Positions 2,379-47,148 of a stretch of 47,941 bases of DNA are shown one piece after another. Under the pieces are notes generated by a model. The model had not been told where the DNA came from, searched no databases, and saw only the letters and a list, made by a program, of their open reading frames with translations. The stretch comes from Nitrospira sp. (GTDB taxonomy: Bacteria > Nitrospirota > Nitrospiria > Nitrospirales > Nitrospiraceae), in contig JABFSU010000048.1 of the NCBI GenBank assembly GCA_013140455.1, forward strand, positions 1 through 47,941, given 5' to 3'. Every line of letters starts with the position of its first letter. The stretch's first letter is position 1. Both the position numbers and the translations under genes were made by a program.

Positions 2379-4067
2379 TCATCGCGCCGGGGGTTTATCC
2401 AGACGGTGGGCCATCCGCATGAAAGCCCGGCCGATTCGATCATAGAGTTTGTCCACATAGAGCCGATTCATGAACAGGACGTACAGTCGGATCCGCAGGC
2501 CTTCGACCCAGGGCGGCATCCACACGGTTCGGCCATGGGCGCGCAGATAGAGATAGCACCAGCTGAGGACGGTCATGATTGTGGCCAGCAGGATCATGAG
2601 GTCAAAGAGCCCGCGGGGAAGCGCGGCGGCTTTGAAATACGCCGCGACTTCGTTCGGATCGGGATACAAAAAAGCCGTGAAGGATTCGACGGCAAAGAGA
2701 TACATGAACACCACAAAGAGGAGTGTGACCAGCATGGCGGCCGACACTTCCCAGGAAGGCACCGTGCGCAGGCGGGTGAGCGTCAAGATGGCTTGTGACG
2801 ACGTGATCCAAATGAAAAAGAGGAAAATCACAGTCCCTTGGGATTCCAGTAAGGGGATGTGCAGCGCGCCGTGGGTGACCAACAAGATTAGCAGGGGAAT
2901 CATCAAGGTGGTCAGAAATCCGGTCGACCAGGTGAGCGGGGAAAACGTCTGTTCTTCCTCCTCCTGGTCGGCATGGGGGACGTGCGCTTCCTGCCGGGCC
3001 TTATGAATCACATTGCCGCTGTTCAGGAAGACCGTGGCTTTAAAGAGTCCGTGCGCGATCAGATGAAACACGGCGAGGGAGAACGCGCCCAGGCCGCACT
3101 CCATGATCATGTAGCCCATCTGACCGACCGTCGAGAAGCCCAGGGTCTTCTTGATGTCGTTCTGCGCCAGCATCATCGTGGCGCCCAGCACGGCGGTCAG
3201 CGTCCCCACCACAAAAGCCACATGCAACGTCGTTGAGCTGAGCCCGAAGAGCGGCGCCAACCGGTTGATCAGGAAGCCGCCCGCATTGATGATGCCGGCA
3301 TGGAGCAACGCCGTCGCGGGCGTCGGGGCATAGAGATAGTGAGGGAGCCAGATGTGGAACGGGAACTGCGCGGACTTGCTCATCCCGCCGATGAACAGGA
3401 GCAATGTCACGGCCGTGGCGCCACTGATGTCGAGGCCCGGCAGCGGGGAGAGCGTCACAGACGATTCGGCCGCCTTGGCAAACAACGCCGGAAACTCCAG
3501 GGTTCCGTAGAGGGCGTGGGCCAGGACGATTCCCGCAAGAAACGCGATGTCTCCGACCCGCAACAGCGTGAACGTCTTGAAGGCTCCTTCCAGCGTGCCC
3601 GCATGGGTATGGTTATGGGCCAGGAGATACAGCAGATAACTTAGGAGTTGCCAGAAGAGAAACAGCATCATGAGGTTCGCACTGGAGACCAGGCAGAGCA
3701 GGACGAAGAGCGCCAGGCCGATGAGAGCCAGGTAACGCGGTTCGTGAGGGTCCTGGTACATGTAGTCGATGGAATAGGCGTAGATGACGGTGCCGACACC
3801 TGAGATCAGCACCATCATGACGGCGCTGAGCCGGTCGATATAGAAGCCGATCGGAAAGGTGAGCGAGGCCGCCGAGGCCGGGTCGTAGAAGCGAACGCTG
3901 ATCGGCCCCTGCGTGGCCACAACATAGAGAATGGCGACCGCGCCGCAGAACGCCGCTCCGATCGGGAAGGCGGCGAGCTGTATGCGGGCGCGGCGTGAGC
4001 GGTCGTCGCCGACGGCGACCATGAGCGTCGTCAAGAGCGGGAGCAGCGGAAGCAGGATGGCGTACAC
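2379..4067 (-). CDS. NuoL-like proton-conducting subunit, DabB/MpsA type (copy 1)
   Basis: This 562-residue paralogue of the neighbouring gene has the same domain plan: about 14 membrane segments and the core GGMSKSAQFPFHIWLP, APTPATALLHAG, NAGGFLINRLAPLF. PTPVHALLHAG in copy 2 is PTPATALLHAG here, a change next to the ion path. The start is GTG 4067 with GGGAGG 5 nt upstream, which aligns its N-terminus with copy 2. An in-frame extension to 4175 is possible but lacks an SD. It is first in a minus-strand block, divergent from the DUF2294/MpsC gene. Blocks of its DNA are identical to copy 2 over 60 bp or more while others differ clearly. A role in inorganic carbon or cation accumulation is inferred from family and context. 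Confidence 0.8.
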   Translation of the reverse strand: MYAILLPLLPLLTTLMVAVGDDRSRRARIQLAAFPIGAAFCGAVAILYVVATQGPISVRFYDPASAASLTFPIGFYIDRLSAVMMVLISGVGTVIYAYSIDYMYQDPHEPRYLALIGLALFVLLCLVSSANLMMLFLFWQLLSYLLYLLAHNHTHAGTLEGAFKTFTLLRVGDIAFLAGIVLAHALYGTLEFPALFAKAAESSVTLSPLPGLDISGATAVTLLLFIGGMSKSAQFPFHIWLPHYLYAPTPATALLHAGIINAGGFLINRLAPLFGLSSTTLHVAFVVGTLTAVLGATMMLAQNDIKKTLGFSTVGQMGYMIMECGLGAFSLAVFHLIAHGLFKATVFLNSGNVIHKARQEAHVPHADQEEEEQTFSPLTWSTGFLTTLMIPLLILLVTHGALHIPLLESQGTVIFLFFIWITSSQAILTLTRLRTVPSWEVSAAMLVTLLFVVFMYLFAVESFTAFLYPDPNEVAAYFKAAALPRGLFDLMILLATIMTVLSWCYLYLRAHGRTVWMPPWVEGLRIRLYVLFMNRLYVDKLYDRIGRAFMRMAHRLDKPPAR

Positions 4068-4090
4068 GGGCACCTCCCGGTTTCGGAAAA

Positions 4091-4142
4091 CAAAAAAGCC
4101 AACGGGGCTACGCGACGACATGTCCACGCACCACAGTTGGCT
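4091..4142 (-). promoter_or_regulatory. Terminator-like hairpin (candidate attenuator) in the leader of the DabB/MpsA-like operon
   Basis: Read on the minus strand, AGCCAAC (4142-4136) pairs perfectly with GTTGGCT (4103-4097), and six T residues follow directly (4096-4091). The loop is long (32 nt) and GC-rich. A shorter alternative, AGCC-CCGTT-GGCT, uses the same right arm. The T-run ends about 24 nt before the GTG start at 4067, so any termination here would act in the leader of the operon. The structure is visible in sequence; regulation is inferred. Confidence 0.35.
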
Positions 4143-4379
4143 TGTACTGCAACCGGCCCGAAACGTGCCGGTCACCCTACCGCCTCTGAATGTGATTCAG
4201 CCCGATGGTCCTGCTGTCCCGTGTGATCGTGGAGGATAGCAAACACCATGAGCTGAATACTGATGCCTCTTATCCGGTATCGGTCTCGGGGTAGTCAAGA
4301 GTGCAGGTACAATGCCCGGAGCTATCTAGGCCTTCGGGCCCTCCCCCATCTCTTTCGGCCCAACGGGGCGGCTTTGTCC

Positions 4380-4442: not shown

Positions 4443-4802
4443 ATGACCAAAGGTGAAATCGAATCGGCGATTCGTAACGCCATCATCAAGTTCGAACAGG
4501 AATTCATGGGCCGGGGCCCGGAAGATGTGCGGGCCTATATCGTGCGGGATCTCGTCGTCGTTCGCCTGAAGGGCGTCCTGACGCCGGCCGAGCGGCAACT
4601 GGCCAAGACCGCCGAAGGCGTCGACATGGTCAAACGAATCAGACAAACCCTCATCGCCCAGGGGCGCGAGCGGCTCTTCGAGCAGGTGAACGACATCACC
4701 GGAGCCAAGGCGCTGGCGCTCTATACCGATATCAATGCTCAGATCGGCGAGAAGGTGCTGGTCTTTACGGTGGATCGTGACCTGGAAGGGCCTGGCCGGT
4801 AA
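4443..4802 (+). CDS. DUF2294 / MpsC family protein
   Basis: A small soluble protein of 119 residues matching the DUF2294 family from memory: an N-terminal KGEIESAI stretch, then FEQEFMGRGPEDVRAYI, VVVRLKGVLTPAERQLAKT and a C-terminal ITGAKALALYTDIN. In Staphylococcus a DUF2294 protein (MpsC) is encoded with MpsA (NuoL-like) and MpsB (DUF2309), a membrane-potential and bicarbonate system. Its position divergent from two MpsA/DabB-like genes fits that association. ATG 4443 is chosen, 7 nt from GGAAGGG; GTG 4440 is the alternative. Its stop overlaps the selO start as TAATG, so the two are translationally coupled. Biochemical function is unknown to me. Confidence 0.8.
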   Translation: MTKGEIESAIRNAIIKFEQEFMGRGPEDVRAYIVRDLVVVRLKGVLTPAERQLAKTAEGVDMVKRIRQTLIAQGRERLFEQVNDITGAKALALYTDINAQIGEKVLVFTVDRDLEGPGR

Positions 4803-6277
4803 TGGCCGGGCGCGCATTGGAAACCCTGTCGTTCGATAACTCTTATGCGCGTCTGCCCGAATCATTCCATGCCAAACTGAATCCCACGCCATTCTCATCG
4901 GCTCCTTATCTCATTAGCTTCAATCGTGCGGCGGCGGAACTGATCGACCTGGATCCGGCGGAAGCGGCGCGTCCGGAATTCGCCGGCGTCTTCGGCGGGA
5001 GTCTGCTCGTGCCGGGCATGGAACCGTTGGCGATGCTCTATTCCGGCCATCAATTCGGCACCTATGTCCCGCAGCTCGGCGACGGCCGCGCGATCCTGTT
5101 GGGCGAAGTGCGGAACGACCGGGGCGACAAATGGGATCTGCAACTCAAGGGCGCGGGCATGACGCCCTTCTCGCGCGACGGCGATGGCCGCGCCGTGCTG
5201 CGCTCGACGATTCGCGAGTACCTCTGCAGCGAAGCCATGCATGGCTTGGGCATTCCGACGACGAGGGCGCTGTGCATCGTCGGCAGCGATCATCAAGTCT
5301 ATCGTGAACAGGTGGAGACGGGCGCCATCGTGCTGCGCATGGCGCCGACGCATGTCCGCTTCGGATCCTTCGAAGTCTTCTACTATCGCAAGCAGCATGA
5401 ACAGCTGAAAGTCCTGGCCGATTATGTCATCACGCAGCACTATCCCCATCTGGTCGACGTCTCCGACAAGTACGCGCGGTTCTTCACTGAGGTGGTCGAG
5501 CGGACAGCGAAGCTGATCGCCCAGTGGCAGGCGGTCGGGTGGGCTCATGGCGTGATGAACACCGACAATATGTCGATTCTCGGGATCACGCTCGACTACG
5601 GACCCTTCGGATTCATCGACGACTACGATCCCGGCTTCATCTGCAACCATTCCGACCACAACGGACGTTATGCCTTCAATCAGCAGCCCTACATCGGGCT
5701 GTGGAATCTGAGCTGTCTGGCGCAGACGTTGCTGCCATTGGCCGAAAAGGACGCGCTGAAAGCAGCTCTGGATTCCTATACGCCGCTCTGTGAGCGCCGC
5801 TATATGGAACTGATGCAGGCCAAGGCCGGGTTGAGCCAGGAGCAGGAAGACGATGCGGTGTTGATTCAGGATCTGCTGGGCCTCATGCAGCAGAGTCACG
5901 TTGATTACACCAACTGCTTCCGCACTTTGGGAGCATTTTCATCAGTGGAGGGCTCGCTCAACGAATCGCTCCGCGACCATTTTCTCGACCGTGAGGCGTT
6001 CAGTGCCTGGGCCCAGCGGTATGCCGGGCGGTTGCGCAGGGAACAGAGCCGCGACGAGGAACGGCGCACGCGCATGAACCGGGTCAATCCCAAATATGTC
6101 CTGCGCAACTATCTTGCCCAGACCGCTATCGAGAAGGCGCAGCAGAAGGACTATTCAGAAGTCGATCGCTTGCTGACGCTGTTGCAAGATCCCTACAGCG
6201 AACAGCTTGGCATGGACGCCTATGCCGCCGCGCCCCCCAACTGGGGCAAGCATTTATCGGTGAGTTGCTCGTCCTGA
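4802..6277 (+). CDS. selO: Protein adenylyltransferase SelO (YdiU/UPF0061)
   Basis: This 491-residue pseudokinase-fold enzyme transfers AMP from ATP to Ser/Thr/Tyr of target proteins, and in E. coli it is linked to oxidative-stress signalling. Family motifs are intact: YSGHQFGTYVPQLGDGRA, LQLKGAGMTPFSRDGDGRA with Lys116, STIREYL with Glu139, HGVMNTDNMS with Asn253 and Asp255, and DYGPFGFIDDY. It ends in SCSS; the eukaryotic homologue carries selenocysteine near this end, while bacteria usually have Cys. Length is normal. The start overlaps the DUF2294 stop (TAATG). A weak 6-bp inverted repeat follows at 6285-6302 without a T-run. The last ~55 codons recur as a decayed copy at about 7938-8104. 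Confidence 0.95.
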   Translation: MAGRALETLSFDNSYARLPESFHAKLNPTPFSSAPYLISFNRAAAELIDLDPAEAARPEFAGVFGGSLLVPGMEPLAMLYSGHQFGTYVPQLGDGRAILLGEVRNDRGDKWDLQLKGAGMTPFSRDGDGRAVLRSTIREYLCSEAMHGLGIPTTRALCIVGSDHQVYREQVETGAIVLRMAPTHVRFGSFEVFYYRKQHEQLKVLADYVITQHYPHLVDVSDKYARFFTEVVERTAKLIAQWQAVGWAHGVMNTDNMSILGITLDYGPFGFIDDYDPGFICNHSDHNGRYAFNQQPYIGLWNLSCLAQTLLPLAEKDALKAALDSYTPLCERRYMELMQAKAGLSQEQEDDAVLIQDLLGLMQQSHVDYTNCFRTLGAFSSVEGSLNESLRDHFLDREAFSAWAQRYAGRLRREQSRDEERRTRMNRVNPKYVLRNYLAQTAIEKAQQKDYSEVDRLLTLLQDPYSEQLGMDAYAAAPPNWGKHLSVSCSS

Positions 6278-27948: not shown

Positions 27949-28572
27949 ATGACAAGACGGAATTTCGGACGAACAGCATTGGCAGGGATAGTTCTCGTCG
28001 TAGGATTGAGCGTTAGCCTGTTCCAACCGGAGCGCTCGACCGCGACCGCATCAGCCAAGGCTTATTTTGCCGGCGGGTGTTTCTGGTGCATGGAGGAAGC
28101 TTTTGAGAAGGTCGAGGGTGTGGTGATGGCGGTCTCCGGCTATATGGATGGGACGGTGGCCAATCCGACGTATGAGCAGGTGTCAGCGGGCGGGACCGGG
28201 CATGCGGAGTCGGTTGAGGTGACCTACGATCCTGCCAAAGTGAGTTACGAGAAGCTCTTGGATGCGTTCTGGCGCAATGTGGATCCGCTGACCCCGAACG
28301 CGCAATTCTGTGACCATGGCAATCAGTATCGGGCCGCGATATTTCCCTCGACTCCCGAGGAGCAGAAACTGGCAGAGGCCTCGCGAAAGCGTCTTGAAGA
28401 GTCGAAACAATTTCACCGCCCGATCGTGACGCAAATTGTGGCGGCCACGGTATTTTACCCGGCCGAAGAATATCACCAGGATTTCTATAAAAAGAATCCG
28501 GTGCGCTACAAGTTCTACAAATTCAATTGCGGCCGGACCCAACGGTTAGAAGAAGTGTGGGGGAAGCCGTAA
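27949..28572 (+). CDS. msrA: Peptide-methionine (S)-S-oxide reductase MsrA, exported form
   Basis: 207 residues. The MsrA core repairs methionine S-sulfoxide using Cys44 in GCFWCME, with recycling Cys candidates at Cys47 and in FNCGRT near the C-terminus. Further motifs: SGYMDGTVANPTYEQVSAGGTGHAE (split by normal residues) and YRAAIF. An N-terminal basic-hydrophobic segment (residues 1-35) predicts export, so it would protect envelope proteins. The SD GAGGAGG lies 11 nt before ATG 27949. No msrB is adjacent. Confidence 0.93.
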   Translation: MTRRNFGRTALAGIVLVVGLSVSLFQPERSTATASAKAYFAGGCFWCMEEAFEKVEGVVMAVSGYMDGTVANPTYEQVSAGGTGHAESVEVTYDPAKVSYEKLLDAFWRNVDPLTPNAQFCDHGNQYRAAIFPSTPEEQKLAEASRKRLEESKQFHRPIVTQIVAATVFYPAEEYHQDFYKKNPVRYKFYKFNCGRTQRLEEVWGKP

Positions 28573-41757: not shown

Positions 41758-43305
41758 CTAGAGTATTCCCGCCAGTCGATTGATACTCAGCGTCGTCTGG
41801 CCGAAGAACAGCTGAAAGGCGTGGTAGTCCTTTTGCTGCACCTGTCGGGGGAGTGGGCCGTTGTCGCAATACAGCATGCCGATAGGCCGGGTTCCGACTC
41901 GGAGAGGCGCGATGATGGCCGACCCGGGGTTCCACGTCCGGAGAAATTTTGGATTGATGGGGTCGCCTAGAGGGACGGTGAAATCCTCGATCCAGACGGC
42001 ATCCGACCGCTTCATAAGTTGCAAGAAGTGCGGATGCTCCTTGGTCAGCGAGCCGGACAAGCTGTCGATATATGGAGCCGGCTCCCCCACTCCGAGTAAC
42101 AGGCGCCCCACCAAATGATCGGTATTGTTCGGGTTCAGCAAGGCCAGGGAAACCCGGGCAAAGCCGCCGTCCCGGTGTAGGGCGTGCACGAGCGTGCTCA
42201 AGAGCGTGTTGATATCTTTGGCTTCGCGCAACGCGGTTTGCAACATTTGCAGCGTCTCGAGAGGATTCGTCTCAATCGCACTGGGCCCGTGTTTCTGAGG
42301 CCTCACCGTGATGGTGGGAACTTTCACCGGAGGCGGCGCGGGAATCGGACAGCTGGCTTCATGTCCGACGGGATCTTCCCAGAGATCGAACGACAGGCCG
42401 GCCGAATGGACCAATTGCTTACCTCGATCCAGTGCGCGCACAAGGATGTCGCCGAACAGGTGTGACGGCAGGCCACTCCCTGTGAGGAGCCCACGCTTGG
42501 CGGCCTCCATGGTGGCCGGGGAGGGAGGGCCGGTCATGGCATCGACCAATGAAGAGCAGCCGATGACGAGGCCCTTGAACATCTCCTGACCGGAGCCCCA
42601 CCGCTCCTGGCTCTGATGCCCGTCGATGGAAAACAACTCCACGACAAAGGGTGGCAGCGCCCACATCTGCCCGAGGGCTTGGGCAATCCGGAGACGGGGG
42701 ACTCCATAGAGCTGTGTTTCCTCGATGATGCGTGCCGCGGGCGTCTTGGCAGTCAGGGGGATTCTACGGTACGAGACGTAGAGATCCTGAGCTTGACTGG
42801 CGATGGCGAGGTCCCCGATGGAATAGAGCAAGGTGGCACTAAAGAGCTGGCCCAACGATGGATACTCGAGTGCCATGCCCAGTTCATTGGCATGCGCCGC
42901 TGCGACCAGGGCCCGGGCAATGACCCCGCTGACGATTTTCTGCTGATTCGGCCATTGACTGAGTTGTTCGACAAGTTGAGAGGCGGTGACAATGGAGCGG
43001 ACCGTATCCAGCCCGAGCCAACTGACAGCATGGGGGATCGAGGTGATGACTTGTTGCGGACTGTAGGCAATACTGTTCGAGATTTGGAGGACCCGGCAGG
43101 ACAGGGCCGGATCACGACTGATGATTTGAGCGAGGCGATCGGCTCCGGTGAGTCCTCCGGTCAGACTGAGAATTTTCTGGCAGGTTTTCTCCAGGGCTGG
43201 TAAGCAGGGACTAGCCTGATTGAGGAGTGGCTGCAACGTACTGTGCAGACGGGGACGAATGGATTCGGCAAGAGCCGATTCTGACGATGTGGACGACGAT
43301 GACAT
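41758..43305 (-). CDS. HDOD domain protein with C-terminal GAF-like domain
   Basis: 515 residues from ATG 43305 with GGAAGGAG upstream. Residues ~40-245 are an HDOD domain: IISRDPALSCRVLQISNS, SIPHAVSWLGLDTVRSIV, ALVAAAHANELG and LLYSIGDLAIAS. A Pro-rich linker (~315-335) leads to a GAF-like domain with EAKDINTLLSTLVHALHRDG and PLRVGTRPIGMLYCDNG. HDOD proteins take part in c-di-GMP and stress signalling without known catalysis. It is convergent with the lipoprotein gene by 22 bp. It may work with the two PilZ proteins, which is speculation. Confidence 0.88.
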   Translation of the reverse strand: MSSSSTSSESALAESIRPRLHSTLQPLLNQASPCLPALEKTCQKILSLTGGLTGADRLAQIISRDPALSCRVLQISNSIAYSPQQVITSIPHAVSWLGLDTVRSIVTASQLVEQLSQWPNQQKIVSGVIARALVAAAHANELGMALEYPSLGQLFSATLLYSIGDLAIASQAQDLYVSYRRIPLTAKTPAARIIEETQLYGVPRLRIAQALGQMWALPPFVVELFSIDGHQSQERWGSGQEMFKGLVIGCSSLVDAMTGPPSPATMEAAKRGLLTGSGLPSHLFGDILVRALDRGKQLVHSAGLSFDLWEDPVGHEASCPIPAPPPVKVPTITVRPQKHGPSAIETNPLETLQMLQTALREAKDINTLLSTLVHALHRDGGFARVSLALLNPNNTDHLVGRLLLGVGEPAPYIDSLSGSLTKEHPHFLQLMKRSDAVWIEDFTVPLGDPINPKFLRTWNPGSAIIAPLRVGTRPIGMLYCDNGPLPRQVQQKDYHAFQLFFGQTTLSINRLAGIL

Positions 43306-43386
43306 GGGGCTCCTTCCCAAAAATCCCACAAGTTGTATCGGATGAATGGCAATGAATCTTAACCAGCACAGAAGAAAAGACTGAGG

Positions 43387-44223
43387 ATGACTGGTATGCA
43401 GTTCGGCTGGATGACTGTTGATAGCTCCGTCTTCTTAGATGGGCTCAAGTCATTGATTCTGCTGGTGTCGATCATTCTGATCCGGACGTTGGTCGTGCGG
43501 GGAATCTCGCGCAACCATACTTTGTCGATGGAGGACAAGCGTCGCTGGGTCGTGACGACCAGAAACTCCATGGTCTTTGTCATCCTGATCGGCTTCGTCG
43601 TCATCTGGGCGCATGAACTCGAGGCTTTTGCCGTCTCGATCGTCGCATTGGCGGCCGCGCTGGTCTTGGCGACGAAGGAGTTGATTCTCTGCTTGAGCGG
43701 GGCGGCATTGCGCGTGGGTGGTAAGGTGTACGGCGTTGGTGACCGCATTCAAATTGCCGGACATCGAGGGGTGGTGCTGGACCACGATATGTTTGCCACG
43801 AAATTGTTGGAGATCGGTCCTGGCCAGTCGTCGCATTTGTATACCGGACGAGTAACGGTGTTTCCGAATAGTCTTTTGTTTACCAACGCACTCGTCAAAG
43901 AAAATCCGGGGCAGGAATTTGGCCTCTACACATTAGTCGTACCCTTGAGATCGGAGGGAGAATGGCAGCGAGCCGAGCAGGCGCTGCTGGCTTCCGCCAA
44001 GGCCGAGTGTGGCCCGTTTATGGAAGAAGCCGCGCGACAAATGAAATTGCTGGAACAAGCCAATCTCCTGGAAGCTCCCTCACCGGAACCCCGTATCACC
44101 ATTCAGCTTCCCGAGCCGGGGAAGATTCAGTTGGTGCTTCGATTCCCGGCTCCTGATCGGGGTCGCTCGCGGGTGGAGCAAGCTATTCTCCGCCGATATC
44201 TGGTCGAGATGACTCAGGTCTGA
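43387..44223 (+). CDS. MscS-family mechanosensitive channel-like protein
   Basis: 278 residues with three membrane segments (~19-36, 58-75, 79-105). The pore-lining helix VSIVALAAALVLATKELILC is followed by the MscS beta domain: KVYGVGDRIQIAGHRGVVLD, TGRVTVFPNSLLFTNALV. The C-terminal part is longer and more helical than in E. coli MscS. It would release solutes on osmotic downshock or act as a related channel. The terminator at 44235-44269 follows. Confidence 0.85.
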   Translation: MTGMQFGWMTVDSSVFLDGLKSLILLVSIILIRTLVVRGISRNHTLSMEDKRRWVVTTRNSMVFVILIGFVVIWAHELEAFAVSIVALAAALVLATKELILCLSGAALRVGGKVYGVGDRIQIAGHRGVVLDHDMFATKLLEIGPGQSSHLYTGRVTVFPNSLLFTNALVKENPGQEFGLYTLVVPLRSEGEWQRAEQALLASAKAECGPFMEEAARQMKLLEQANLLEAPSPEPRITIQLPEPGKIQLVLRFPAPDRGRSRVEQAILRRYLVEMTQV

Positions 44224-44234
44224 CTCGAAAACAG

Positions 44235-44269
44235 CAAGGGCCTCACGACTGTTCATCGTGAGGCCCTTG
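44235..44269. terminator. Bidirectional intrinsic terminator between mscS-like and peroxidase genes
   Basis: A perfect 14-bp stem: CAAGGGCCTCACGA (44235-44248) and TCGTGAGGCCCTTG (44256-44269), loop CTGTTCA. It lies 12 bp after the stop of the plus-strand channel gene and 30 bp from the stop of the minus-strand peroxidase gene. No long T-run, but the stem is strong. It serves both convergent genes. Confidence 0.85.
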
Positions 44270-44299
44270 TGGGTCAGCAACTCCCCCTTGGCCTATGAG

Positions 44300-45367
44300 T
44301 TACTTGGGAAACGTCTTCGGGGCCATCACCTGCTGCCAGCCTTCCCCGTTCAGCGATTTCAATAGGGCGACGACATCCTGTTGCTCCTGTTCAGTCAGTT
44401 CAAGAGGAATGATGGTGTTGTCCTGATGCGGGTTCTTGATGCCACCCTGGTTATAAAATTTGACCACTTCCTCCAGTGTCTTGAACCGCCCATCGTGCAT
44501 GTAGGGTGCTGTGCGGGCGATCTCCCGCAAGGTCGGGGTCTTGAACGCGCCAATGTCTTCCGGGCTCTTCGTCACCATGTAGCGACCGAGGTCCACTGTG
44601 TTGGTATCCCAGCCGATACCAAGATTGTGGAATTTCTCGTCTGTGAAGTTGAAGCCCGAATGACACCGCGTGCAGCGGGCTTTCCCGCGGAACAGCTCTA
44701 GCCCGCGCTTCGCCGATTCCGACAAGGCGTTCTCATCACCGCCAAGATCGAATTGGTCGACGGGACTGTTGCCGGAGAGAATGGTCCGCTGAAAGCTCGC
44801 GATAGCTTTCCCTACATCCTCGATGACGATCTCGCGTCCGAAGACTTCCTGAAAGAGCTTCCGGTATCCCGGCATCTTCCTCATCTTCGCGACCATCTCA
44901 TCGTGATTGATGAATCCATGTTCGACCGGGTTCACGAACGGCCCGATCGATTGATCTTCCAATGTGTCGGCCCGTCCGTCCCAGAATTGTCCCTTGCTGA
45001 ACACACGATTGACGGATGCCGGCGCGCTGCGGCCGCCTTTGAGCTTGTTGATGCCGGTTGAGACCGGCATTCCGTCCGTAAAGCCTTTCGCGGGAAGGTG
45101 GCAGCTTACGCAGGCGATGGTGTCGTTTTTCGAGAGGCGCTTGTCGAAAAAGAGCAGTCGGCCGAGTTCGACCTTCTTGGCGGTCAGCGGATTGTCTCCC
45201 GGCACGAAGGTGTTGGGATCCTCCAACCCTTGGATCGAAGGAAGTTTGTACTCCGAAACGGAACCTACTCCCGGGTCGCCCTGAGCGAGAGGTATCGTGT
45301 TCACCCACCCGACGAGTATGAAGAAGGAAACAACGGACATACGGAGCAACCAACCGTGTGTGACCAT
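44300..45367 (-). CDS. Di-haem cytochrome c peroxidase (CcpA/MauG family)
   Basis: 355 residues from ATG 45367 behind AAAGGAG. A Sec signal ends near LAQG, so periplasmic. Two c-type haem sites: CVSCH (Cys86, Cys89, His90) and CTRCH (Cys232, Cys235, His236). A Met ligand is likely in APYMHDGRF. Family motifs LGRLLFFDKRLS and GRSAPASVNRVF are present. The enzyme reduces H2O2 with electrons from cytochrome c. Divergent from oxyR across a 119-bp region with a LysR-type site, so OxyR is the probable regulator. Confidence 0.93.
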   Translation of the reverse strand: MVTHGWLLRMSVVSFFILVGWVNTIPLAQGDPGVGSVSEYKLPSIQGLEDPNTFVPGDNPLTAKKVELGRLLFFDKRLSKNDTIACVSCHLPAKGFTDGMPVSTGINKLKGGRSAPASVNRVFSKGQFWDGRADTLEDQSIGPFVNPVEHGFINHDEMVAKMRKMPGYRKLFQEVFGREIVIEDVGKAIASFQRTILSGNSPVDQFDLGGDENALSESAKRGLELFRGKARCTRCHSGFNFTDEKFHNLGIGWDTNTVDLGRYMVTKSPEDIGAFKTPTLREIARTAPYMHDGRFKTLEEVVKFYNQGGIKNPHQDNTIIPLELTEQEQQDVVALLKSLNGEGWQQVMAPKTFPK

Positions 45368-45432
45368 GAGCCGACTCCTTTCTTGAATGAGCTTCCGATG
45401 AAATGGTAGGGCGTGACGAAAAATTAGTCCAA

Positions 45433-45462
45433 TTGATTGTATTGTGAACATCGATTTATAAT
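45433..45462 (+). promoter_or_regulatory. Sigma-70-like promoter for oxyR
   Basis: TTGATT (45433-45438), an 18-nt spacer and a perfect TATAAT (45457-45462). Transcription would start near 45469, leaving a leader of about 18 nt. The -10 box lies inside the LysR-type site, which predicts autorepression. Confidence 0.6.
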
Positions 45463-45472
45463 ACTTATCGAT
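45450..45472. promoter_or_regulatory. LysR-type binding site (ATCGAT-N11-ATCGAT) between oxyR and the peroxidase gene
   Basis: ATCGAT (45450-45455) and ATCGAT (45467-45472) are separated by 11 bp, a perfect palindrome with the T-N11-A arrangement of LysR-family operators. The arms resemble the ATAG/CTAT quarter sites of OxyR only loosely. Its position between divergent oxyR and peroxidase genes, overlapping the oxyR -10 box, supports an OxyR operator. Binding is inferred. Confidence 0.6.
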
Positions 45473-45486
45473 AGAGGAACTCAGAA

Positions 45487-46407
45487 ATGACTATTACCGA
45501 GCTGCGGTATCTCGTCGCCTTAGCCCAGGATCGGCATTTTGGCCGGGCCTCCGAGCGATGCTGTGTGAGTCAACCGGCTTTGAGCTTAGCGATTCAGAAG
45601 CTGGAGGATGAGCTCGGGACAATGATCTTCGAACGACGCAAGCATCACATCACGGTGACGGCGCTCGGAGAACAAATTGTCCAGCAAGCGCAACGCGTCT
45701 TGGAGGAAGCCGATCAGATTCGAGTGATTGCGGCCCAGGGCAAGGATCAGCTGGTCGGACCGCTCCGTTTCGGGGCGATTGCAACCGTGGGGCCGTATAT
45801 TTTGCCGGATCTTGTTCCTCTCCTGAACCAACGCGCTCCATTGATGCCCTTGGAGATCGAAGAGAATTTGACGCTCCATCTGGTGGCCATGCTGAAGAGC
45901 GGAAAACTAGATGTGATCATGATCGCATTGCCGTTGGAAGAGCCGGGAATTGTCACGAGGGCGTTGTATGATGAACCGTTCAAAGCGCTTGTCCCGGTTG
46001 GACATCCCTGGCAAAAAAAGAAATCGATCGATTCGCGCCAGCTCGGGTCGGAGAAAGTCCTCTTGCCGCATGCGGGACATTGCTTCCGGCAGCAGGTGCT
46101 GGATACCTGTCCCGAGTTGAGCCGATCCGATGCCGAAGGTTGGCAAGGGAACTCATTGGAGACGATTCGCCAAATGGTGGCCTCAGGGCTGGGTATCACC
46201 GTTTTGCCCTGCAGCGCGCTGACGTCCAAACATGAGAACAAACGGCTGGTTGCGATTGATTTGGCCAAGCCGGTTCCTGGACGCCGGATCGGACTGGCCT
46301 GGCGGCGGGGATTTACCCGCCCCCAAGTGGTTGATGCCATTTCCGACGCTGTGCAGGCGCTGAAGATTCCAGGTCTGAAGCAGATTGCTGCTGAGCAGCG
46401 TCGATAG
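45487..46407 (+). CDS. oxyR: Hydrogen peroxide sensor OxyR (LysR family)
   Basis: 306 residues. N-terminal winged HTH (TELRYLVALAQDRHFGRASE, CVSQPALSLAIQKLEDELG) and a periplasmic-binding-like sensor domain. The two redox cysteines of OxyR fall at exactly Cys199 and Cys208 in GHCFRQQVLDTC, as in E. coli, and this separates it from other LysR proteins. Peroxide would oxidise Cys199 and form the disulfide that activates transcription. It faces the peroxidase gene. Confidence 0.92.
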   Translation: MTITELRYLVALAQDRHFGRASERCCVSQPALSLAIQKLEDELGTMIFERRKHHITVTALGEQIVQQAQRVLEEADQIRVIAAQGKDQLVGPLRFGAIATVGPYILPDLVPLLNQRAPLMPLEIEENLTLHLVAMLKSGKLDVIMIALPLEEPGIVTRALYDEPFKALVPVGHPWQKKKSIDSRQLGSEKVLLPHAGHCFRQQVLDTCPELSRSDAEGWQGNSLETIRQMVASGLGITVLPCSALTSKHENKRLVAIDLAKPVPGRRIGLAWRRGFTRPQVVDAISDAVQALKIPGLKQIAAEQRR

Positions 46408-46547
46408 GGCTTCTGTTGAAAGATCGACCGGGTGCGGGTAGCCACGCATCCTCGTTTGACACCCGTTTCATTCCAGGGCAGGATATAAAAAGCCTCGCCT
46501 AGGGAATTCCCCTTTATTCACATGATCGAACATGCAGGAGGAACGTG

Positions 46548-46961
46548 ATGCGAAACATAGTAGTGGCGGCAATTGCGGCAGCGTATCTGATCGGTGCTGG
46601 TTCGTTGGTGCTGGCTGACGATGCGATGAAGAATGAACTGGGAGCGATGAAGGACCAGATGAAAGCCGACGTGAAGGCGGCTCCTGAAAAAATGAAGGCC
46701 GACAAGGATCAGATGAAAGCTGATATGAAGGCCAAAAAAGAGGACATGAAGAGCAAGATGAAGGCGCATCGTGAAGAGGCCAAGGCCAAGCGAGCAGCCA
46801 TGAAAGATAAAATGAAGGCGAAGCACGAAGAAGTAAAAGGTCAAGGCGATGCAGTGAAAGTCCAAGCGCAGGAGATGAACGCTGCCGGACAGCAAATGGG
46901 TAGCCATGCCAAAGCTGCCGGGCAGGAGATGAAGGACGTCGTCGGTGCGATGGGGAAATAG
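46548..46961 (+). CDS. Secreted Lys/Met/Ala-rich helical protein
   Basis: 137 residues from ATG 46548 with GGAGG upstream. A signal peptide ends VLA-DD. The mature protein is low-complexity: short units such as KADKDQMKAD, MKAKKEDMKSKMKAHREE and AKRAAMKDKMKAKHEEVKG, rich in Lys, Met, Ala, Glu and Asp, predicting one long amphipathic helix or coiled coil. It ends AGQEMKDVVGAMGK. About 18 Met residues make metal binding or oxidant scavenging possible. The family is not recognised. It follows oxyR by 140 bp and ends at a strong terminator. Confidence 0.75.
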   Translation: MRNIVVAAIAAAYLIGAGSLVLADDAMKNELGAMKDQMKADVKAAPEKMKADKDQMKADMKAKKEDMKSKMKAHREEAKAKRAAMKDKMKAKHEEVKGQGDAVKVQAQEMNAAGQQMGSHAKAAGQEMKDVVGAMGK

Positions 46962-46987
46962 CCCTCGATGAAAGATTCATGACCATG

Positions 46988-47018
46988 ACGGCCCCTGGCA
47001 GTTGTCAGGGGCCGTTTT
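46988..47018 (+). terminator. Rho-independent terminator
   Basis: ACGGCCCCTG (46988-46997), loop GCAGTTGT, then CAGGGGCCGT (47006-47015) and a T-run TTT continuing to 47018. It lies 27 bp after the stop of the Lys/Met-rich protein. Confidence 0.88.
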
Positions 47019-47148
47019 CGTTCCAGCCTCTCAATCATTCATTGACTCCCCGGATGATGAACGCCCGCGTTCTGTGATTTAGAATAGGGCCCGCTTGTTC
47101 CAGACCCCTGCTTCTGCTAGCATCCCCGCCGGTCAATCGACCCATATT

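Follow-up and report, generated by a model that had tools for sequence, protein, structure and literature searches.

Conserved oxyR and a divergent di-haem gene with a tyrosine ligand position in Nitrospira: a probable peroxide-defence unit

The window analyzed here is a stretch of 47,941 nucleotides from Nitrospira sp. (contig C56 of an assembly of 3.79 Mb, 95.5% complete), and towards its end a gene for the peroxide sensor OxyR faces a gene for a di-haem protein of the CCP_MauG family. We conclude that these two genes and the two-box operator between them probably form a conserved, OxyR-controlled peroxide-defence unit, a reading to which we give a probability of roughly 0.78 and from which induction by hydrogen peroxide (H2O2) and activity of the enzyme are predicted. 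The features on which the argument depends are as follows, with no strand assigned to the operator elements.

44300-45367, minus strand: exported-looking di-haem CCP_MauG-family protein of 355 amino acids, with Tyr305 at the sixth-ligand position
45487-46407, plus strand: oxyR, LysR-type peroxide sensor of 306 amino acids, with Cys199 and Cys208
45423-45437: operator box 1, ATTAGTCCAATTGAT (T-N11-A), mean pairwise identity 0.888 across 41 sequences
45454-45468: operator box 2, ATTTATAATACTTAT (T-N11-A), identity 0.628, with T and A invariant in 41/41
45450-45472: palindrome ATCGAT-N11-ATCGAT, centred on box 2
45433-45462, plus strand: predicted oxyR promoter (TTGATT, 18 bp, TATAAT), 10/12 consensus matches, its -10 element within box 2
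45403-45432, minus strand: predicted di-haem promoter (TTGGAC inside box 1, 18 bp, TACCAT), with a predicted transcription start site (TSS) near 45396
44235-44269, minus strand: terminator-like hairpin of 15 pairs after the di-haem gene

Comparison loci were retrieved by OxyR similarity and the best 80 of 254 confirmed loci were used. Forty of them (L001-L039 and L079) are titled Nitrospira, Nitrospirae or Nitrospiraceae, with L016 titled Nitrosospira, and make up the Nitrospira-group set; the remaining 40 are proteobacterial relatives. Alignment of the window with the 40 Nitrospira-group loci gave the 41 sequences in which the operator was examined. Outside the two boxes, identity was lowest in the spacer (0.291) and the far flank (0.300), reached 0.353 just past box 2, and rose to 0.384 at the predicted di-haem -10 element and 0.407 between that element and box 1. 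Since the boxes exceed spacer and flank in the very same sequences, the relatedness of the loci is controlled for. The box centres (45430 and 45461) are 31 bp apart, and this spacing is constant across the Nitrospira-group loci. The 12-base core of box 1 is exact in 28 sequences and carries one mismatch in 11, two in one and three in one, which places 39/41 within one mismatch as opposed to 6 of 8,200 single-base shuffles, and each of the two T-N11-A positions of this box is kept in 40/41.

A preliminary description of this DNA had singled out the perfect ATCGAT-N11-ATCGAT site, stated that it overlaps the oxyR promoter, and proposed its conservation as a check. The site is present, in a single copy in the window, and the overlap is confirmed, with the centre at 45461 falling inside the predicted TATAAT -10 element (45457-45462) of the sole sigma-70-like promoter found when 43300-47100 was scanned; shuffled sequence yields a mean of 1.8 such promoters, so the oxyR promoter taken alone is within chance. 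Conservation of the palindrome was borne out only in part. Its centre is box 2 of the conserved operator, but its outer arms are poorly conserved: the inner AT is invariant, the rest of the left arm agrees in 11 (A), 12 (T), 23 (C) and 30 (G) of the 41 sequences, and the outer bases of the right arm agree in 22 (C), 21 (G), 20 (A) and 20 (T). The operator is a pair of boxes, and the better conserved of the two, box 1, had been missed. As a repeat, the palindrome was rejected as statistically notable, with 15 inverted repeats of this form (six-base arms, 11-base gap) observed in the window and 11.7 expected. That count and the variable outer arms are what would be seen if it were a functionless chance repeat, yet this explanation is very improbable given that its centre is a box with an invariant T-N11-A held at a constant distance from box 1.

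The gene pair itself agrees with what had been described, namely an OxyR with Cys199 and Cys208 divergent from a di-haem gene across 119 bp. The two cysteines, in this protein's own residue numbering, are both kept in 38/38 of the Nitrospira-group relatives covered (two have gaps) and in 40/40 proteobacterial relatives. Pfam finds a LysR helix-turn-helix domain (63.3 bits) and a LysR substrate-binding domain (159.5 bits), both above cut-off; the top NCBIfam model is OxyR (251.3 bits, E 1.2e-74), with another OxyR model as runner-up, and the best match of solved structure is also an OxyR (317 bits). The assembly as a whole has two LysR-type helix-turn-helix matches at E 0.001, the window's oxyR being one of them. 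For the di-haem gene we prefer the start at 45367, which has AAAGGAG upstream, is shared with the closest named relative (L038, from query residue 1) and makes the intergenic gap exactly 119 bp; the start of the open reading frame (ORF) as read mechanically, 45451, would fall within the palindrome and was set aside. The gene seems to be transcribed alone in the window because the terminator-like hairpin comes after it, a kind of site found four times in the region scanned with 3.4 expected.

OxyR is a cytoplasmic DNA-binding protein, and its oxidation by H2O2 forms a Cys199-Cys208 disulphide. As the sensor is cytoplasmic, the unit would answer H2O2 that reaches the cytoplasm, and the same disulphide would be expected to form in the window's OxyR. 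Reduced OxyR on the two T-N11-A boxes would cover the di-haem -35 element (box 1) and the oxyR -10 element (box 2) and repress both genes, and the overlap of box 2 with the oxyR -10 element fits such self-repression. Oxidized OxyR would then contact the DNA differently and switch the di-haem gene on, as it does at the E. coli oxyR-oxyS region; we infer this binding, redox switch and H2O2 induction from the layout and its conservation. The predicted di-haem promoter is supported by conservation of the first T, second A and sixth T of its -10 element (34, 33 and 36 of 41, respectively), and measured from its predicted TSS the centres of the boxes are at -34 and -65.

The E. coli region has three 15-bp sites, whose centres are at -66, -44 and -35 relative to the start of oxyS, with reduced and oxidized OxyR touching different sets of grooves (PMC5002191). 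Both operators have 15-bp T-N11-A sites with the outer boxes 31 bp apart (in E. coli by subtraction of the published positions), and the -65/-34 placement in Nitrospira resembles -66/-35 from the divergent target, a resemblance that depends on the predicted start. In its paired T-N11-A sites, 31-bp outer spacing and adjoining divergent target, the Nitrospira region thus has the form of an OxyR-type operator. It differs in that the boxes depart from ATAG-N7-CTAT and the target is an enzyme gene rather than a small RNA, and no middle site corresponding to E. coli IR2 was resolved in the Nitrospira operator.

The pairing of the two genes is conserved as well. A di-haem gene lies upstream on the opposite strand in 38/40 Nitrospira-group loci, and the two without it are L006 and L033, the latter with 490 bp of upstream sequence. 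We also surveyed 59 Nitrospira genomes, including the window's own, and counted OxyR as full length when the match covered about 297 or more of 306 residues. Thirty genomes qualify, with one stop flagged inside an otherwise full-length match in G021, G014 and G057. The operator stands directly upstream of 29 of these 30 full-length oxyR genes, and a divergent di-haem gene is found within 5 kb in 26/30, in some cases with other genes between. In two of the four unpaired cases (G031, G028) the di-haem gene is on another contig, and in G020, whose assembly is 67% complete, the full-length oxyR comes without a di-haem match. In another three genomes OxyR is matched only in part, and in one of these (G019) the partial match adjoins a di-haem gene. 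With up to three mismatches allowed, the two-box pattern occurs in 36/59 genomes and the reversed control pattern in 2/59. Since both operator and gene pairing are conserved, OxyR control of the divergent di-haem gene, as had been proposed for this DNA, is strongly favoured, although a link between OxyR and a periplasmic peroxidase is not new. In the N. defluvii group, the operator and the di-haem gene are separated by a small lipoprotein-like ORF whose last residues read TTLRFR, TTLMFR or similar (L024:4662-4868, with equivalents in L020, L021, L027, L028, L031, L032, L034, L035 and L079); the one in L024 has no Pfam match.

To see what else accompanies the operator we scored it on the proteobacterial loci against single-base shuffles, for which the 99% level is -3.9 and the top of 1,000 shuffles is 12.4. 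The score exceeds the 99% level in 24/40 loci and every shuffle in 20/40. A tblastn match to rubrerythrin, KatA, KatG, AhpC, peroxiredoxin or Dps (nine query representatives, checked by Pfam) was present in the flank of 23/24 operator-positive loci, compared with 0/16 operator-negative loci; the sole operator-positive locus without one, L080, also has the weakest score, and the match in L042 is 3.1 kb away. Rubrerythrin matches account for 17/40 loci, with an identity of just 38-39% to the query in three. From the company it keeps across relatives, the operator is a marker of peroxide-defence genes, with the di-haem gene as its usual partner in Nitrospira; the same operator with rubrerythrin, catalase, KatG, AhpC or Dps elsewhere suggests a peroxide switch whose partner enzyme has been exchanged. 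The rubrerythrin arrangement is seen in Gallionellaceae and relatives (L055, L060, L061, L062, L064-L067, L072, L074-L076 and others), where oxyR and a rubrerythrin gene diverge from the two-box operator. Of these, L055, L061, L062 and L076 share operator and layout with the window and differ in the partner, which in still other loci is catalase, KatG, AhpC, peroxiredoxin or Dps.

Peroxide genes also join the unit within Nitrospira. In 9/40 Nitrospira-group loci a gene for a Dps-like protein separates oxyR from the di-haem gene or, in L006, replaces the latter, and L002 and L006 carry a catalase in addition. Among the 59 genomes, 20 have a catalase match (19 above cut-off), and eight have a catalase no more than 4 kb from the di-haem gene, one of these being a fragment at a contig end; OxyR is matched, fully or in part, in 33 genomes, of which 22 lack a catalase match. 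These neighbourhood counts used 59 of 67 di-haem matches and 19 of 27 catalase matches, the rest being second copies, fragments and weak matches whose coordinates leave the adjacency counts unaffected. Forty-eight two-box matches were found in the 59 genomes, 29 at full-length oxyR genes and 19 elsewhere. We read the surroundings of eight of these 19, the other 11 all having three mismatches. All six operators away from oxyR with at most one mismatch (G050 C103 twice, G057, G058 C184, G003 C127 and G054) precede genes for small exported proteins that form one loose family, and at two of these sites, in G050 and G057, a catalase follows. An operator with three mismatches on G003 C100 lies between an OxyR-like fragment and catalase-Dps, and another on G031 C156 lies between a broken oxyR and a di-haem gene.

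Many members of the small exported family have repeated 'ERIGxGGSxY'-like segments, and some stand directly before a catalase. Members are found at L115:2708-3007, L121:2729-3133, L120:2183-2536, L113:1533-2030 and 3842-4285, L123 (about 2,700-2,920), L002:4556-4852, L006:4488-4901 and L037:3580-3933. Six of these proteins, four of them from the extra operator sites, matched nothing in NCBIfam at E<=1 and nothing in Pfam above cut-off, and no gene of this family stands beside the window's unit.

In the window's own genome the layout comes close to a single target. The two-box pattern at up to three mismatches is found at the window site (0 mismatches) and at five sites with three mismatches, compared with one for the reversed pattern; we take the five as noise, which leaves one close operator, and the scan of the window found no operator apart from the oxyR site. 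The assembly has no Pfam catalase or KatG match.

The preliminary description called the partner a periplasmic di-haem peroxidase, and this holds as far as the family and probable location are concerned. The protein matches CCP_MauG (PF03150) with 193 bits against a cut-off of 25.6, has CxxCH motifs at 86-90 and 232-236, and looks exported from its hydrophobic N-terminal stretch. It departs from the canonical enzyme at the sixth ligand. With the solved cytochrome c peroxidases 1iqc, 3o5c, 2c1u and 1nml (PDB) it shares the two CxxCH motifs, a QFWDGR segment and the conserved Glu region, but Tyr305 occupies the column in which all four chains have Met. As a Met (or His) sixth ligand of the electron-transfer haem is the criterion for a canonical cytochrome c peroxidase (PMC7567364), we excluded that identity, by alignment rather than by structure. 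In gap-free alignments, Tyr305 falls on residue 294 of MauG and on the tyrosine of 'IYSEGG' in BthA of Burkholderia thailandensis, and Tyr294 is a haem ligand of MauG and the criterion that separates it from the peroxidases (PMC7567364; PMC6405878). Tyr305 would accordingly be placed to bind the second haem (Tyr/His ligation). With the window included, it is kept in 38/38 sequences covered, one further sequence being truncated, and W129, Q139 and E149 are kept in 39/39. In the window's genome, PF03150 matches outside this gene are confined to one frame of 730 amino acids on C37.

Its best NCBIfam scores, 253.9 bits for the MbnH family and 250.6 bits for MauG, are below the cut-offs of TIGR04039 (362.85) and TTQ_mauG (443.85), and we rejected both a true MbnH and a true MauG. 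There are no mau genes among the window ORFs scanned, and no genome-wide search for methylamine dehydrogenase genes was made. BthA (PDB 6e1c) is the best solved match of the C-terminal part (66 bits), and the two proteins share the tyrosine ligand position, by alignment alone, and the acid-base Glu, with E149 lying 20 residues past W129 as Glu277 does past Ser257. The serine between the haems of BthA is replaced by W129, a correspondence that rests on the equal spacing to Glu. The four haem cysteines are the only cysteines present, so the C-terminal disulphide of BthA is absent; the first haem His is residue 90 rather than 192; and BthA adjoins a putative phosphatase gene, not oxyR (PMC6405878). 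Because Tyr305 replaces the Met ligand and aligns with MauG Tyr294, the enzyme is a MauG/BthA-like variant, and with scores below the MauG and MbnH cut-offs and these differences from BthA it is best called a tyrosine-type CCP_MauG protein of its own. Peroxidase activity is still its likeliest function since the Tyr-ligated BthA reduces H2O2 with an external donor (PMC6405878). We infer that the product would be exported, receive two c-type haems and most likely reduce periplasmic H2O2 with electrons from the cytochrome c pool, and its predicted Tyr/His second haem may store oxidizing equivalents as in MauG and BthA, unlike a canonical Met/His haem.

These resemblances raise the question of whether the enzyme is mainly a scavenger. 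It could, under OxyR induction, oxidize or cross-link a periplasmic partner in the manner of MauG or MbnH, which would suit the alignment of Tyr305 with the tyrosines of MauG and BthA, the families that head the NCBIfam list, and the small exported proteins of no known family behind the same operator in relatives, including all six close extra operators. We regard this as rather unlikely, seeing that the scores fall far under the cut-offs, mau genes are missing from the window ORFs scanned, the small exported gene is not beside the window's unit, the other partners of the operator are plain H2O2 defence genes, and the likewise Tyr-ligated BthA reduces H2O2 using an external donor. A bolder version is a long shot: an OxyR-commanded MauG-like enzyme would mainly store a bis-Fe(IV) oxidant to modify or cross-link envelope proteins, possibly the small exported 'ERIGxGGSxY'-like proteins of the relatives, and not remove H2O2. 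If true, it would amount to a peroxide-induced protein-modification response of the envelope in catalase-poor Nitrospira, of which we met no description in the extracts of the literature.

The preferred reading, an OxyR-controlled peroxide-defence unit, has relatives among known systems. E. coli ccp (yhjA) and ccpA of Shewanella (S. oneidensis) are OxyR-induced genes for periplasmic cytochrome c peroxidases (PMC8115020; PMC6416212). In the window, too, OxyR appears to be joined to a haem peroxidase from the CCP_MauG superfamily that acts in the periplasm, with OxyR control here deduced by comparison. OxyR of E. coli and S. oneidensis also drives catalase and/or KatG, AhpCF and Dps. Unlike in those species, the Nitrospira di-haem gene faces oxyR, has the tyrosine ligand position and is accompanied by no other close operator and no Pfam match to catalase or KatG. 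The E. coli case suggests another role, since the OxyR-induced ccp performs H2O2 respiration (PMC8115020), and cytochrome c peroxidase, reported in 70/75 Nitrospira reference genomes, has been discussed as a means of H2O2 respiration there (PMC9239080). Use of H2O2 as a terminal electron acceptor at low oxygen, rather than mainly defence, is nevertheless unlikely for this gene, as the tyrosine ligand is unlike that of the canonical enzymes and the linkage to Dps and catalase favours defence.

Several observations weigh against a peroxide-defence unit under OxyR control. Its support is comparative, and the 40 Nitrospira-group loci are mutually related and were chosen via OxyR similarity, hence they are not independent observations. 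The OxyR score of 251.3 bits is below the 329-bit cut-off of the NF008361 equivalog, by which name the window's OxyR cannot go, though the other OxyR features tested hold. The di-haem promoter is a weak consensus match that the promoter scan did not list, and the predicted structure of the enzyme is too poor to probe the haem ligand (mean predicted local distance difference test score, pLDDT, 54.3; predicted template modelling score, pTM, 0.53; alignment of 28 sequences). For several of the 16 operator-negative proteobacterial loci the flanking sequence is short, between 129 and 3,356 bases in six. In the window's genome, box 1 alone at up to three mismatches has 42 matches against 14 for its reverse, leaving room for weaker OxyR sites; one is exact, and among the 15 of the 42 that were read over 80 bases, the window site included, that site alone had a second box. 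The same genome has eleven AhpC/TSA-fold matches, which could clear H2O2 without OxyR control.

The pairing also has its exceptions. An intact oxyR on C46 of G003 has neither operator nor partner, the di-haem gene of that genome being on C100, and of the 52 genomes that have a di-haem match, 22 lack an OxyR match at E 1e-60 (two of these 22 have di-haem matches of only 47-62% identity). Because the di-haem match persists without a detected OxyR in these genomes, the pairing is common and not obligatory, and the di-haem gene is not everywhere OxyR-dependent. These genomes, and the overlap of box 2 with the oxyR -10 element, would suit an operator that serves oxyR autoregulation only, with the di-haem gene an unregulated neighbour. 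This is improbable: the better-conserved box 1 is on the di-haem side, the pairing is retained at 26/30 full-length oxyR genes, two genomes have catalase operons headed by an operator remote from oxyR, and the partners vary yet remain peroxide genes. As for G003 itself, C46 (L124) has the oxyR without operator, compared with an OxyR-like fragment and operator beside catalase/Dps on C100 (L122), and with the di-haem gene also on C100 this looks like relocation or duplication.

Nitrospira are dominant nitrite oxidizers in wastewater treatment, and the genes that have been discussed as targets of their OxyR are ahpCF and grxA (PMC5596200); in 'Ca. N. defluvii', both catalase and superoxide dismutase are reported to be missing (PMC3578206). 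Our data point instead to one concrete target and operator, and the two-box motif lets the OxyR regulon be read across the genus. With its tyrosine ligand, the enzyme would be a natural example of a non-canonical di-haem protein drawn into OxyR control. Extracts of the open-licence literature naming Nitrospira gave no description of the oxyR-ccp pairing, the operator or the tyrosine ligand. OxyR with a periplasmic peroxidase is a known kind of system; what is undescribed, as far as we have seen, is the tyrosine variant, its operator and a layout close to a single target in a genome with no catalase match.

The genes around the unit are less constant. An ORF of 278 amino acids (43387-44223), convergent with the di-haem gene and without a Pfam match, is matched in 18/40 Nitrospira-group loci. 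Downstream of oxyR, an exported Lys/Met-rich protein (46548-46961) is matched in 2/40 of these loci (L003, L038), and Pfam gives it a weak apolipoprotein-like match below cut-off. Elsewhere in the window, the SelO and exported MsrA that had been noted among its oxidant-handling genes were both recovered:

4802-6277: SelO (PF02696, 501.8 bits)
27949-28572: MsrA with a hydrophobic N-terminus (PF01625, 212.6 bits)

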